A DNA stretch of 64,000 bases from assembly GCA_026537415.1 (NCBI GenBank), contig JAFNMF010000001.1, positions 829,112 to 893,111 on the forward strand. Direction: 5' to 3'. The stretch comes from Acetobacteraceae bacterium B3987. GTDB taxonomy: Bacteria; Pseudomonadota; Alphaproteobacteria; Acetobacterales; Acetobacteraceae. The notes beneath the pieces were generated by a model that was not told where the DNA came from, searched no databases, and saw only the letters and a program-made list of their open reading frames with translations. A program made the translations under genes and the position numbers. Shown here in pieces: positions 55,430-63,245 of this stretch (its first letter is position 1; every line of letters starts with the position of its first letter).

Positions 55430-55445
55430 TCTTTGCTGTCATGCT

Positions 55446-55471
55446 CCCTGCTACCATTCTCGGTAGCAGGG
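55446..55471 (+). terminator. hairpin after ahcY
   Basis: CCCTGCTACC/GGTAGCAGGG perfect 10-bp stem with a 6-base loop, 17 bases after the ahcY stop. No T run follows, so transcription may partly continue into the DUF3597 gene. Confidence 0.55.
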
Positions 55472-55513
55472 TCATACCGACCAGTCATTCCTGTTTCAGG
55501 GAAGGAATATATC

Positions 55514-55894
55514 ATGGGTCTTTTTAACGATATCGTTTCCAAAGTTTCCGGCTTTGCCAAAAGCCTGTTTGGCTCTTCCGCTCAGGCTGCTGATGCTGCA
55601 CAGCCAGCTGCAGCCTCAGCAGCTTCCTCCATCTCACAGGTGGATGTTGATGCCGTTCTGAAAGAACTGGCCGCCAAGGCTGGCCAGCCGCTGAACTACA
55701 AGGAATCCATTGTCGATCTGCTCAAGCTTCTGGGCCTCGATAGCTCCCTGCAGGCCCGTCAGGCTCTGGCCGACGAGCTGCATTACACGGGGGACAAGAA
55801 CGACACAGCCACGATGAATGTCTGGCTGATTAAGCAGGTTTACACAGAGCTTGCTAATAATGGTGGCAAGATTCCTGCCGGGTGGGGTCACTGA
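55514..55894 (+). CDS. DUF3597 protein
   Basis: 126 residues from the ATG at 55514 (GGAAGGAA before it). N-terminal amphipathic MGLFNDIVSKVSGFAKSLFG, Ala/Ser spacer, then the DUF3597 domain: VDVDAVLKELAAKAGQPLNY, SIVDLLKLLGLDSSLQARQA, ADELHYTGDKNDTATMNVWL. The fold is a small helical bundle of unknown function, sometimes beside LysM proteins. No such neighbour here. Confidence 0.88.
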   Translation: MGLFNDIVSKVSGFAKSLFGSSAQAADAAQPAAASAASSISQVDVDAVLKELAAKAGQPLNYKESIVDLLKLLGLDSSLQARQALADELHYTGDKNDTATMNVWLIKQVYTELANNGGKIPAGWGH

Positions 55895-57263: not shown

Positions 57264-57890
57264 ATGAACCGCCCCCTACCCACTTTTCTTCAATCAGATC
57301 ATATCTCGTCCCGAACACGCACTGCCCTACTTACAAGAATGGAGCAGGAACAGGGCCAGCGGGAGCATCTTTCCCCGGAAGCATTTCAGCTTCTTGAGCT
57401 GGTCTGTGATGACATTCTCCCACAGAGGCCGCTTCTGGGTGATGTACATCTCAATTTAGCTGTCATGATTGATCATGCTCTCGCCGGGCCTGGAGATGGA
57501 TGGCGTTTCGCTGATCTCCCGGCAGATCTTGCCGCATGGGAAGATGGTCTTGCCTCTCTTAACAGCTATGCACAGGCTCTATTTCAGCAGAATTATGCCG
57601 CTCTTAGCCCGGAACAGCGTGGTACAATTCTAGATAAAGCCTTTGATGGTTCATTACCTGATGGTACTCAGGCGCCTTTTTCTACAGCGCAAATGACCTT
57701 GTGGAGTGGTGATCTACGCAATCAAATCGTTGCAGCATTTCTGGCGCATCCAATTGCACAGGAACAGCTTGGAATATCCTCTAACCTGACCGGTGGAGAT
57801 AAGGAAATTCAAGGCTTTTCTGCTAAGTCTTTGACTGAAAAGGAAGCGTTTGAGCCTAAAAATGAACGCCGTTTTTTGGAACCGTCATAA
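57264..57890 (+). CDS. gluconate 2-dehydrogenase subunit 3-like protein
   Basis: 208 residues resembling the small (gamma) subunit that stabilises the FAD subunit of membrane sugar dehydrogenases: HLSPEAFQLLELVCDDILPQ, ADLAAWEDGLASLNSYAQAL, AALSPEQRGTILDKAF, LRNQIVAAFLAHPIAQEQLG. Real family members usually have a twin-arginine signal; none is seen here. The C-terminal 35 residues are polar and divergent. The likely partner, the GMC flavoprotein, starts 439 bases downstream. Base composition changes from C-rich to G-rich through this gene. Confidence 0.65.
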   Translation: MNRPLPTFLQSDHISSRTRTALLTRMEQEQGQREHLSPEAFQLLELVCDDILPQRPLLGDVHLNLAVMIDHALAGPGDGWRFADLPADLAAWEDGLASLNSYAQALFQQNYAALSPEQRGTILDKAFDGSLPDGTQAPFSTAQMTLWSGDLRNQIVAAFLAHPIAQEQLGISSNLTGGDKEIQGFSAKSLTEKEAFEPKNERRFLEPS

Positions 57891-58329
57891 GGGACCCTTT
57901 TAGGGATTTTCTGCCTTCATAAGAGGCAAGGAAAAAGCTGCTGTAGGGGACTGATACTGTGTCAGCCTTTAATGCTTTGGGCCAGATTGAAGCTAGGTTG
58001 AAGAATGGAACAGCCAAACAACACAACAGATAAGATTATAAATCTAAAAGTTAGATGTTGTTGAAGAACCTTGTGGAAACCGGGGTACCCGGCTTTCGAG
58101 AAATGTACCCCAGCTTACTAACAGTGTGTACAACCTCTAGAAGCTAGGGTAAGTAAGGCCTGCAGAATGTTATCCTTCTTTTTCCACAATGAGGCTGTGT
58201 ACAATCCCCGTTTCATAAGGGGGTACAGTACCGTCCCCGGTACTCGGTACCTCTTACGCTTCAAGCAGTACTGTCCCCATGTACCCCAGTACAAACATCT
58301 TTAATCCATAAGCTGATGGAAGCCGTTGC
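57891..58329. other. candidate replication origin: GTAC-rich non-coding region
   Basis: Longest gap in the window. 58015-58065 is AT-rich with GATTATAAATC and flanking CAACA/TGTTG arms. Eleven GTAC cores lie in 58085-58292, many next to runs of four or five G or C; AGTACCG/CGGTACT (58227-58244) is a hairpin and AGTACYGTCCCC is repeated at 58227 and 58267. DnaA-box-like 9-mers: TTTTCCACA (58180-58188, fits TTWTNCACA), GTTTCCACA on the minus strand (58072-58080) and TTGTACACA on the minus strand twice (58125-58133, 58196-58204). No perfect TTATCCACA. It sits where the strand bias changes. Alternative: a complex promoter for the GMC gene. Confidence 0.5.
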
Positions 58330-59874
58330 ATGATGCAGGAAATACATAACGATTTTTCACAGGAAACCGCCGATGTTGTTGTCATTGGTACTGGTGCAGG
58401 TGGTGCGCCGCTTATAGCTCGGCTTGCTATGGCTGGGCGCAAAGTTGTGGCATTGGAGGCCGGGCCGTCTTTTAATGCTCAGTCCCATACGCCGGACGAA
58501 CCTACCGCACAGGAGCTGTACTGGCTGCATGAGCGTCTTTCTGGTGGTGGTACACCTCAAGCCTTTGGTGGCAATAATAGTGGAACAGGAATTGGCGGTT
58601 CCCTTCTCCATTATGGAGCGTTTTTGCCCCGTATGGACCCTCGGGATTACAAGTTGCACAGTGAGAGCGGCAAAGGGGTGGACTGGCCTTTTGGGGCTGA
58701 GGAGCTTCAGCCTTATGTGGAGGAAGTGGAGCGTTTCATTGGGGTAAGTGGCCCGGCTCATTATCCTTGGGATGAAAGCCGCCATTATGCCTATCCTCCG
58801 GCTGCACCCAACCGGGCGGCCCTGAAGATGCGTCAGGCCTGTGATAATCTTGGCCTGCGCCATGCGGATGGCCCTCTGGCTGTAGTGACAAAAGAACGTG
58901 ATCAGCCCCATTTTGGTCGTCGTGAAGGCTGCGTGAATTGCGGTGCCTGCCATCAGGGATGCCGGAATGGAGCAAAATCCGGTGTGGATAATACATATCT
59001 GCCGTTGGCTTGCGCCCATGGGGCAGAGCTGCGGGCCGGATGTATGGCAACCGGGTTCGAACGGGACAGCCAGGGGCGCATTACGGCGGTCATCTATATC
59101 CGCAATGGGCGGGAGGAACGGCAGAAATGCAAAGCCGTCGTGTTGTCCGCTGGGGCTGTGGAAACGGCTCGTCTGCTCCTGAATAACGGTCTGGCAAACA
59201 GTTCCGGTCAGGTAGGCCGTAATTACATGACGCACGTTTCCACACAGGTGTGGGGTGTGTTTGATGAGGAAACCCTCCCCAACAAGGGCTATCCGTCCCT
59301 GACCATTTCTGAGGATATGCTGCGGCCAAAGGATGCCGATTTTGCCGGGGGGTATTTGTTGCAGTCTTTGGGTATGATGCCTTTGACCTGGGCCGCCAAC
59401 CTTGTGCGAGCAGATGGACGCCGTGGCGAAGCGTTAAGCCGGACATTGGCTGCCTATAATTACAGCGCGGGGATTGGCATGCACGGCGAGAGCCTGCCAC
59501 GGGATGAGAACCGTGTGACCCTCTCTGATGAGAAAGACGCCTTTGGTCTGCCCAAACCACGGATCGACCATACATACGGCCCCAATGAGGAAGCCATGCA
59601 CCGCCATGCTTCCCGTTTGATGGTAAAGATGTGGGAGTCCATCGGGGCGAAGGATATCCGTGTCATTAGCCGGGCGGCTCATATGATCGGGACATGCCGG
59701 ATGGGAACAGATGCCGGGGCAGCGGTGGTGAATCCTTATGGGCGTAGCTTCGATATCGACAATCTGTGGATTAGCGATCACTCTACCTTCCCGAGTTCTG
59801 GTGCGGCTAACCCGGCTTTGACGATCATGGCTCTTGCCCTACGTACGGCTGATGCCATGTTGAAGGTGGTTTGA
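58330..59874 (+). CDS. GMC-family FAD dehydrogenase (gluconate/polyol dehydrogenase large-subunit type)
   Basis: 514 residues. FAD motif VVVIGTGAGGAPLIARLAMA, ALEAGPSFN, the cysteine-rich loop CVNCGACHQGCRNGAKSG that in related membrane dehydrogenases holds an Fe-S cluster, and the catalytic His regions AAHMIGTCRMGTD and DHSTFPSSGAANPALTIMAL. No signal peptide; members are exported with their Tat-bearing small subunit. Such enzymes oxidise sugars or polyols and feed ubiquinone, the hallmark of acetic acid bacteria. The substrate is not predictable and no cytochrome c subunit gene follows. Confidence 0.85.
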   Translation: MMQEIHNDFSQETADVVVIGTGAGGAPLIARLAMAGRKVVALEAGPSFNAQSHTPDEPTAQELYWLHERLSGGGTPQAFGGNNSGTGIGGSLLHYGAFLPRMDPRDYKLHSESGKGVDWPFGAEELQPYVEEVERFIGVSGPAHYPWDESRHYAYPPAAPNRAALKMRQACDNLGLRHADGPLAVVTKERDQPHFGRREGCVNCGACHQGCRNGAKSGVDNTYLPLACAHGAELRAGCMATGFERDSQGRITAVIYIRNGREERQKCKAVVLSAGAVETARLLLNNGLANSSGQVGRNYMTHVSTQVWGVFDEETLPNKGYPSLTISEDMLRPKDADFAGGYLLQSLGMMPLTWAANLVRADGRRGEALSRTLAAYNYSAGIGMHGESLPRDENRVTLSDEKDAFGLPKPRIDHTYGPNEEAMHRHASRLMVKMWESIGAKDIRVISRAAHMIGTCRMGTDAGAAVVNPYGRSFDIDNLWISDHSTFPSSGAANPALTIMALALRTADAMLKVV

Positions 59875-59925: not shown

Positions 59926-60142
59926 ACCTAGGAAGAAAGCCGACCTGATGGTGGCGGCGTCCTGCTTTGCCTTCCGGGTCGTCTCCTTCGCACCGGAAGG
60001 CAGTTCTGACTGTCCCTGAGGTCTGGCATGCTCCGTGGCGCATGGTCCGTCATGCAAGATCGTGCGGGTATCCGGCCCATATTCTGGTTTTTTGTTTCTC
60101 CCGCTTATCACCCCACCGGGGCATATCAAGGCGCATCATTTC

Positions 60143-61453
60143 ATGCATCTCGCCGAACTGAAGAAGAAATCTCCCGCTGATCTGCTGACTTTTGCTGAGG
60201 AATTGGAGGTTGAAAACGCATCATCTCTGCGCAAGCAGGACATGATGTTTGCCATCCTCAAGAGTCTCGCCGAACGCGATCAGGCTATCTATGGTGAAGG
60301 GACGCTGGAAATCCTGCCGGATGGTTTTGGCTTCCTTCGCAGCCCGGAGGCCAATTATCTGCCGGGGCCGGATGATATCTATGTATCTCCGGCTCAGGTC
60401 CGGCGTTTTGCGCTGCGGCCTGGCGATACAGTGGAAGGTGAGATCCGTGCGCCGCGGGATGGTGAGCGTTATTTTGCGCTTCAGAAGGTCAACACTATCA
60501 ATTTTGAAGCACCGGAACAGGTCCGGGCCCGCATCAATTTTGATAACCTGACCCCTCTTTTCCCTGAGCGTCGCCTGCGCATGGAGACTGAACCGAAGGG
60601 TGATGCAGCGGCTGCTCCGGCTCCGGCCAAGGGGAAAGGGCGGGATCGCAAGGACCAGAAAGATTATACGTCCCGTGTGATTGATCTGGTCTCCCCCATC
60701 GGTATGGGACAGCGTGCCCTGATCGTTGCTCCGCCGAGAACGGGTAAGACGGTGATGCTCCAGAGCATTGCTTCTTCCATTTCCGCCAATCATCCCGATG
60801 TGTTCCTCATCGTCCTGCTGATTGATGAACGGCCTGAGGAAGTGACGGACATGGCCCGGTCCGTCCGTGGTGAGGTCGTGTCCTCCACCTTTGATGAACC
60901 GGCCCATCGCCATGTGCAGGTGACGGAAATGGTGCTGGAAAAGGCCAAGCGTCTCGTTGAGCATAAGCGTGACGTGGTCATTCTTTTGGATTCCATCACC
61001 CGTCTGGCTCGGGCCTATAACACGGTCGTGCCATCATCCGGTAAGGTGCTGACCGGTGGTGTGGATGCCAATGCCCTTCAGCGGCCAAAACGTTTCTTCG
61101 GTGCAGCCCGTAACATTGAAGAGGGCGGCTCCCTGACCATTATTGCGACGGCCCTGATTGATACAGGTTCCCGTATGGATGAGGTCATCTTTGAAGAGTT
61201 CAAGGGAACGGGTAACTCCGAGCTGATGCTTGACCGTAAGCTGGCAGACAAGCGTACCTTCCCGGCCATCGACATCACCAAGTCCGGCACCCGTAAGGAG
61301 GAGCTGCTGGTGGATCGGGCATCCCTCTCCAAGATGTGGGTTCTGCGCCGCATCCTTGCCCCGATGGGTACGATGGATGCCATGGACTTCCTGCTGGACA
61401 AGCTGCGCTACAGCAAGACCAATCAGGACTTCTTTGATGCCATGAATAACTGA
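60143..61453 (+). CDS. rho: transcription termination factor Rho
   Basis: 436 residues from the ATG at 60143 ([15 protein letters not shown]); the frame is open to 60035 but that part is unlike Rho. RNA-binding N-terminus ([43 protein letters not shown]), Walker [45 protein letters not shown] and the Q/R loops. A hexameric RNA helicase that ends unstructured transcripts. A 268-base leader without other genes precedes it and could carry autoregulation. Confidence 0.97.
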
Positions 61454-63158: not shown

Positions 63159-63245
63159 AAAAACAAGGCTGCCTGTTTTGCCGGGGAGCGTCAATTCTTT
63201 CTTCGGGCCGCTGCTTTTCCCGGCTGAGTGCTGTATGAAAGGCGC

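Follow-up and report, generated by a model that had tools for sequence, protein, structure and literature searches.

The window analysed in this work is a stretch of 64,000 nucleotides of contig G000:C28 from an Acetobacteraceae assembly (G000, 2.04 Mb). It contains an intergenic gap at positions 57891..58329, bounded by open reading frames that end at 57890 and start at 58330. The left neighbour is a gene of the gluconate 2-dehydrogenase subunit 3 family (57264..57890, plus strand; PF13618), and the right neighbour encodes a GMC oxidoreductase (58330..59874, plus strand; PF05199 and PF00732). Further downstream, the frame at 60035..61453 (plus strand), for which tblastn finds counterparts at the corresponding position in close relatives, is taken to be rho, and the frame starting at 63228 is presumably mnmE, both recognised from their sequences. 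An earlier note on this DNA had placed the gap beside rho and mnmE, in agreement with these coordinates. On the other side of the gap, a DUF3597 gene (55433-55894) lies between ahcY and a 2-oxoacid dehydrogenase acyltransferase gene and is kept in Bombella relatives.

The gap is distinguished by an array of GTAC tetramers. Within 208 bp (58085-58292) of the 439-bp gap there are eleven copies, starting at 58085, 58105, 58128, 58199, 58223, 58228, 58240, 58247, 58268, 58281 and 58289. The earlier note had reported the same number and described it as far above chance, and the comparison with background bears this out: across the 64-kb window the mean is 0.39 GTAC per 208-bp window, and 2000 dinucleotide-preserving shuffles of the gap contain 1.81 copies on average and 7 at most, against the 11 observed. 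In the whole 2.04-Mb assembly, the pattern GTACN{0,25}GTACN{0,25}GTAC is found at 17 places, 7 of them in the gap and 10 elsewhere, and the control, the same pattern reversed (CATG), gives 408 matches. Nine of the ten places outside the gap were inspected; all are isolated and all overlap an open frame of 116-1010 codons. The gap is the sole dense GTAC cluster in this genome.

The internal layout of the array is not uniform. At its left edge, an inverted pair GGGGTAC ... GTACCCC (58082..58111) carries the cores 58085 and 58105. The cores 58128 and 58199 are embedded in two copies of the 9-mer TTGTACACA, at 58125..58133 and 58196..58204, both on the minus strand. They are followed by two closely spaced copies (58223 and 58228, within 58223..58231), by the paired cores 58240 and 58247 in GTACTCGGTAC (58240..58250), and by GTACTGTCCCCATGTACCCCAGTAC (58268..58292), which includes the cores 58268, 58281 and 58289 together with TCCCCA at 58274-58279. 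GANTC, the target of CcrM, is absent from the gap (57891-58329), although the genome has a CcrM relative; the CtrA site TTAA-N7-TTAA is not found in the same interval either. Two structural claims of the earlier note are recovered, namely copies that pair with one another, as inverted arms such as GGGGTAC/GTACCCC around 58077-58116, and a repeat at 40-base spacing, from AGTACCGTCCCC (58227) to AGTACTGTCCCC (58267). Its statement that most copies are flanked by runs of four to five G or four C requires qualification: direct contact with a run of at least four G or C is seen for only 4 of the 11 copies, and the others lie a few bases away. The TCCCCA sequence is that of the Caulobacter W-box as described in PMC4285127.

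The same gap contains elements of the kind associated with DnaA binding and DNA unwinding. Five 9-mers differ from TTATCCACA by at most two mismatches, whereas 130 tiles of the window average 0.95 such 9-mers and never contain more than 4; the DnaA-box-like 9-mers of the earlier note number five at this threshold rather than four. Box 1 (58072..58080, minus strand) reads GTTTCCACA here and TCATCCACA or GTATCCACA in many relatives; at this position, 65 of the 79 aligned loci have a box that departs from TTATCCACA by no more than two bases, and in 55 of them a single base differs. The 9-mer TTGTACACA, two mismatches from TTATCCACA, is present at 58125..58133 in 45 of 79 loci, and its copy at 58196..58204 is identical in all 79. 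Between these copies lie TTATCC (58170..58175, plus strand), half a DnaA box that is extended to TTATCCCGA or TTATCCAGA in many relatives and forms a box with at most two mismatches in 42 of 79 loci, and the DnaA-box-like TTTTCCACA (58180..58188, plus strand), which has one mismatch and a box with at most two in 44 of 79 loci. A perfect TTATCCACA occurs in none of the array elements of the 78 loci checked. To the left of box 1, an A+T-rich block (58018..58068), already pointed out in the earlier note, constitutes a putative DNA unwinding element: across 78 named loci, the A+T content reaches 83% in the 20-bp bin located 40-21 bases before box 1, compared with 34-44% for the bins at 300-61 bases. 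The juxtaposition of an A+T-rich unwinding element and a DnaA box, characteristic of a chromosomal origin, is thus observed.

Conservation of the element was followed at increasing distances. Among 60 genomes searched with BLASTN, the own genome included, the gap has matches in 10 of 10 same-genus genomes and in four genomes of other genera of the family. A two-part pattern derived from the alignment retrieves 78 stretches from the named genome collection, all Acetobacteraceae by title, from Acetobacter, Gluconobacter, Komagataeibacter, Gluconacetobacter, Asaia, Bombella, Parasaccharibacter, Neokomagataea, Saccharibacter, Swaminathania, Acidomonas, Ameyamaea and an unclassified Acetobacteraceae MAG; the viral contigs give no match to this pattern. 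Nine of the eleven GTACs of the array persist in 72 or more of the 79 aligned loci. GTAC is present in 78 of 78 valid rows at 58085, 58105 and 58128, in 77 of 79 rows at 58268 and in 72 at 58289. It is also present in all 79 at 58240, 58247 and 58281, although counts at these three cores are biased for 78 of the rows, because those rows were supplied by the search pattern, which contained GTACTCGGTAC and TCCCCATGTACCCC and thereby fixes the three cores. The remaining two copies are lineage-limited, with GTAC in 35 of 36 ungapped rows at 58223 (43 rows are gapped) and in 37 of 79 at 58228. The density of GTAC in the element is 10-14 per 300 bp over the 78 loci, against 0.32 in flanking DNA, and sequence conservation at the array extends beyond the four GTAC bases. 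A profile built from 33 loci matches 125 of 395 family genomes, once in each; these matches were classed as 116 strong and 9 weak. In all eight weakly matching genomes that were aligned, GGGGTAC or GTGGTAC stands no more than a few bases after TGTGGA. The array is accordingly kept in relatives both within the genus and across many genera, a point that the earlier note had left to comparison, and there is one element per chromosome, as is usual for oriC.

The base composition around the gap changes in the manner described by the earlier note. In 4-kb bins of the window, the GC skew is negative throughout up to 54-58 kb (-0.05 to -0.20), amounts to 0.000 at 56-60 kb and is then about +0.10, which places the change from minus to plus at about 58 kb. 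In the complete genome G035, represented by twenty 20-kb samples, the skew stays below zero between 420 and 1780 kb and, apart from one sample at -0.002, above it between 1875 and 3200 kb; the element is located at 1874.4 kb, at the change of sign. Of 10 genomes with 1-20 contigs each, 9 have a higher skew to the right of the element than to the left, with a change of sign in 7 of 10, and G074 shows the reverse order; G235 and G060 were taken as one genome, and Ga. diazotrophicus, in which the skew at the element is weak, is re-sampled in this set. Among the named loci with sufficient flanks (16 of 78 were dropped for short ones), the skew is higher on the right in 53 of 62 and changes sign in 31 of 62. 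A GC-skew minimum, a further property of replication origins, is thus found at the site. The contig of the window shows the minus-to-plus change at the element and has a second skew change, from plus to minus, at 440-540 kb, outside the window; the latter would be explicable by an inversion, a nearby terminus or a misassembly.

Partitioning sites and neighbouring genes point in the same direction. Sites resembling parS, searched for with at most one mismatch, lie 8-123 kb from the element in all six genomes searched, with one to three sites per genome and none for the reversed control. The distances are 8 kb in G000, 10 kb in G009, 12-15 kb in G060, 27-35 kb in G035, 76 kb in G023 and 100-123 kb in G032, whose contig was treated as circular. 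By tblastn, 63 of the 78 named loci have both hemE and maf within 1 kb of the element, three (Neokomagataea) have only hemE there, and 12 have neither gene. A Pfam scan of nine loci finds hemE (URO-D) beside the element in five and Maf in two; the scanned proteins of L095, L043 and L112 include neither. The 12 loci without hemE or maf belong to Bombella/Parasaccharibacter, Saccharibacter and one Acetobacteraceae MAG, and the GMC, subunit 3 and rho genes adjoin the element there instead, some neighbour genes falling outside the 8-kb piece. The hemE-maf neighbourhood is the classic site of alphaproteobacterial origins, and both parS and conserved origin genes are therefore found near the element. 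That the gap would serve as a promoter or regulatory-RNA region of the adjoining dehydrogenase genes, as its position directly 5' of the GMC oxidoreductase gene in the window might suggest, is highly improbable, given that these neighbours accompany the element in only 12 of 78 loci and hemE adjoins it in the other 66, and given that no Rfam family reaches the gathering score in the gap.

The position of dnaA deserves separate consideration. The distance between dnaA and the element is 0.36 Mb in G000, 0.99 in G009, 1.19 in G032, 1.27 in G035, 1.35 in G023 and 1.75 Mb in G060 (the shorter way round). In the window's genome dnaA, at 527 kb, is separated from the element by just 360 kb; in G009 it is about 992 kb away in a genome of 1.9 Mb, and in G009, G023 and G060 it is roughly half a chromosome away. 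No GTAC array was seen by eye in the dnaA upstream regions of five genomes. Published predictions for two Acetobacter strains place oriC at dnaA: near this gene and opposite dif in A. pasteurianus 386B (PMC3751514), and by this gene at the GC-skew maximum in A. cerevisiae KSO5 (PMC13209655). A corresponding reading would make the element part of the terminus region (dif), with the origin near dnaA. Such an assignment is very hard to reconcile with a skew that runs from minus to plus in the window and in G035, with the nearby parS sites and with the hemE and maf genes flanking most elements, and dnaA is, in the description of PMC8116508, not conserved near the origin in Rhodospirillales; a terminus at this position is thus extremely unlikely. 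A search with the dif consensus gave no match in six genomes, and a 16S rRNA search for strand bias found a match in only one of six and was uninformative. Considered together, the skew minimum, the conserved array, the nearby parS and the hemE-maf location in most other genera make it very probable that the gap 57891-58329 is an oriC, in line with the alphaproteobacterial origin proposed by the earlier note, and the stretch is very probably the start of chromosome replication in acetic acid bacteria.

Genomes with the array share a further component, an orphan methyltransferase referred to here as MT2. This enzyme has about 280 aa and the motifs TSPPYN and VLDPFxGTGT; its gene in the window's genome (G000:C28:285847-286689) is flanked by mltA and an Smr-domain gene and has no nuclease gene as a neighbour. 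All 20 array genomes scanned contain at least two full-length PF01555 methyltransferases, a CcrM relative and MT2. In the window's genome, CcrM is the best NCBIfam match of the companion, below the curated cut-off, and MT2 itself remains below every NCBIfam cut-off. The Dam family (PF02086) was also considered as partner of the array and rejected, as it occurs in only 10 of the 20 genomes. The best solved relatives of MT2 include a DNA cytosine-N4 methyltransferase, and MT2 has TSPPY, which is typical of m4C enzymes. MT2 is 42-44% identical over 250-259 aa to the methyltransferases of the Synechococcus phages Syn19 and ACG-2014j, and its phage relatives in general are 42-47% identical (11 records); identity to three CcrM relatives is 23-27%, and a long central region is common to MT2 and the phage enzymes and different in CcrM. 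In both named phages, the methyltransferase gene overlaps a gene annotated as 'R.RsaI endonuclease', although no Pfam or NCBIfam model matched the two R proteins. M.RsaI forms m4C at GTAC (PMC6256690, Table 1), and archaeal orphan m4C methylases of GTAC are described in PMC10609329. By homology and by the phage annotation, MT2 is probably an M.RsaI-type N4-cytosine enzyme with GTAC as its target. A relative of MT2 with about 51% identity is encoded on a Paracoccus alcaliphilus plasmid (L364:2899-3777), next to an IS4 transposase; no nuclease is annotated directly beside it, and a GIY-YIG nuclease gene lies 2 kb away.

The distribution of MT2 was compared with that of the array. With a cut-off of E <= 1e-30, MT2 is present in 172 of 395 family genomes, comprising all 116 with a strong array and 56 of the 279 others; genomes such as G100 are called MT2-negative by their absence from this list of 172. 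There are 48 MT2 genomes without an R1 match, and G217 is a weak match without MT2. A conserved orphan methyltransferase therefore co-occurs with the motif cluster, though the independent contrasts are too few for significance, and shared descent accounts for part of the co-occurrence.

Genomes without the strong array provide a second view of this relationship. It was predicted in advance that those with MT2 would be richer in GTAC at hemE-side origins. For this comparison 52 genomes were chosen (26 MT2-positive, 26 MT2-negative), of which G195, G206 and G084 were dropped for want of a hemE match, leaving 49. In a fixed interval of 500 bp upstream of hemE, used because confident windows centred on DnaA boxes were too few, the mean number of GTACs is 1.88 in the 24 MT2-positive genomes and 0.48 in the 25 MT2-negative ones, against backgrounds of 0.38 and 0.31, respectively. 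The Mann-Whitney p was printed as 0.0000, and seven other palindromes give p of 0.06-0.60. The MT2-negative set includes G064 and G100, which were later grouped with the acetic acid bacteria by the tree. Windows centred on DnaA boxes in hemE loci were available for 4 MT2-positive and 10 MT2-negative genomes (p 0.027), and for 2 and 8 at a stricter cut (p 0.056). The neighbour of the hemE-proximal box is often GTACCCCG in MT2-positive and TCCCCG in MT2-negative genomes, with exceptions both ways; 8 of 24 and 4 of 25 genomes, respectively, have no TCCACA in the 700 bp upstream.

Several observations limit the weight of this difference. GTAC adjoins the box or lies near it in four genomes without MT2 (G062, G092, G096, G099), and two sister pairs depart from the association: G014 (MT2-negative) and G134 (MT2-positive) have two GTACs each, and G077 (MT2-negative) has two against one in G083 (MT2-positive). 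In a hemE tree, in which four acetic-acid-bacterium rows were labelled MT2-positive and GTAC-rich by inference, 10 changes of MT2 are needed and only five well-supported independent pairs are obtained. For the presence of GTAC, 1.5 of these pairs go with MT2, 0.0 against it and 3.4 show no difference (median p 0.5 by sign test); when at least two GTACs are required, the values are 1.8, 1.1 and 2.1 (median p 1). The difference derives largely from one MT2-negative clade of 14 genomes with no GTAC, and the family-wide association is therefore not independent proof. One further case comes from two genomes placed with the acetic acid bacteria. G064 and G100, which group in the hemE tree with Neokomagataea (99/88) and Gluconobacter (100/99), have neither MT2 nor the array. 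The origin of G100 next to hemE (L362:4500-4790) has 14 perfect TTATCCACA boxes and no GTAC in 380 bp, and G064 has two perfect TTATCCACA boxes and one GTAC in 410 bp. The two genomes count as a single event, with long branches in a single-gene tree, and G064 was flagged for its odd letter make-up.

The explanation that best accommodates these results is an oriC whose GTAC array is methylated by MT2, with hemimethylation limiting initiation; its probability is estimated at about two thirds. It starts from what is observed at the locus, namely position, conservation, uniqueness, skew, parS, hemE-maf location and co-occurrence. An A+T-rich unwinding block would adjoin DnaA box 1, and the next 210 bp or so would contain weak DnaA-type sites with 11 GTACs, each of which would at the same time be a target of the conserved orphan methyltransferase. 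Passage of the fork would leave the array hemimethylated, which may change its occupancy by DnaA (or by a reader protein) until MT2 remethylates it, and this delay would limit initiation much as Dam and GATC do in E. coli. In this chain we infer the specificity of MT2, the methylation, the effect on DnaA and any reader protein. The GTAC sites, dense and strictly conserved, are probably marked by methylation through an enzyme dedicated to them, like GATC in E. coli, and it is fairly likely that they are MT2 methylation sites influencing initiation. The balance leans slightly towards a broader proposal, in which N4-cytosine methylation of GTAC by an M.RsaI-type orphan enzyme at an 11-site array would time replication as an independently evolved counterpart of Dam/SeqA, and in which the array would decay or be replaced by ordinary DnaA boxes once the enzyme is lost, as in G064 and G100.

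Two other functions of the array within an oriC have to be weighed. The earlier note found the GTAC array unlike known origin motifs and suggested an unknown initiator or regulator; methylation now takes precedence over an unknown initiator because of the co-occurrence of the array and an orphan methyltransferase with RsaI-linked relatives, and the two GTACs inside TTGTACACA boxes narrow the role of the array. A separate regulator, either a repressor or an accessory of initiation, would suit the paired cores GTACTCGGTAC and GTACCCCAGTAC and the inverted arms, which a dimeric protein could bind, but no candidate protein was found, the array occurs once per genome, and G000 has no other dense cluster of GTAC, so that such a regulator is improbable. 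A less remote, still unlikely explanation is that the GTACs are merely the core of lineage-specific weak DnaA sites (TTGTACACA, GTACCCC/TCCCCA), with methylation irrelevant and MT2 serving another function. The closeness of TTGTACACA to TTATCCACA, its invariant copy and the conservation beyond four bases speak for this explanation, as does the recognition helix of DnaA, which is the standard RDHTTV in five genomes. Moreover, actinobacterial boxes accept G or C at position 3, and weak TCCCCA W-boxes are described in Caulobacter (PMC4285127). However, weak DnaA sites as such leave unexplained why exact GTAC is kept at so many positions, why all 116 strong-array genomes have an RsaI-type methyltransferase and why MT2 and array are jointly absent from G064 and G100.

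The proposed methylation of the array by MT2 can be compared with several known systems. As in Caulobacter, where hemE adjoins Cori, most relatives have hemE as a neighbour, and a TCCCCA site and weak 9-mers are also common to both. Cori has TCCCCA W-boxes and G-boxes, and a GTAC array does not figure in its description in PMC4285127. In relation to M.RsaI restriction-modification (GTAC, m4C), MT2 is akin to phage methyltransferases overlapping annotated R.RsaI genes, but in the window's genome it stands between the mltA and Smr genes without an adjacent nuclease gene. Orphan methylases with motif clusters at origins are treated in PMC4752239, which gives four: Dam with GATC, an Arthrobacter enzyme with TTAA, a Nocardia enzyme with CTCGAG and a haloarchaeal m4C enzyme, whose motif is CATG in the text and CTAG in a figure legend; the main text of that paper mentions neither GTAC nor Acetobacter. 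A conserved orphan methyltransferase, a non-coding motif cluster at the origin and correlated presence are shared with these systems as described there, whereas the present array keeps its individual sites from genus to genus and has two GTACs inside DnaA-like boxes. The GTAC/MT2 case is a probable further member of this group, with a new bacterial class and a new motif, and the methylated base is probably different from that of Dam and the Arthrobacter enzyme. In the top-ranked results of literature searches, neither a description of a GTAC origin in Acetobacteraceae nor a methylome of an acetic acid bacterium was recognised.

The closest parallel is the Dam/SeqA system at E. coli oriC. Common descent with that origin beyond box R1 was considered and is not supported: the window is not significant (132 of 200 shuffles are as good), only Gluconobacter L042 among nine loci tested beats all 200 shuffles, and the array profile scores 6.4 bits against E. 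coli (907 bases, E 0.0029), with its match on the other strand from that of R1. In both systems, a dense array of a palindromic tetramer lies among weak DnaA sites beside an A+T-rich unwinding block, and many acetic acid bacterial relatives have an R1-like box (CCCTGTGGAT) at the same edge. The tetramer is GATC with the m6A enzyme Dam in E. coli and GTAC with a probable m4C enzyme here, and a Dam-family methylase is not conserved among the array genomes as sequestration of the Dam/SeqA type would entail. If the methylation reading is correct, an independently evolved counterpart of Dam/SeqA and m4C-based control of origins would exist in bacteria, and a single gene, MT2, would bear on whether methylation of origins arose repeatedly in evolution, here at the N4 of cytosine rather than the N6 of adenine. 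The element also gives a well-supported oriC for the acetic acid bacteria, which include vinegar, cellulose and bee-symbiont species and for which the two published Acetobacter predictions point to dnaA instead. G064 and G100 may represent a natural experiment, the joint loss of the enzyme and its sites.
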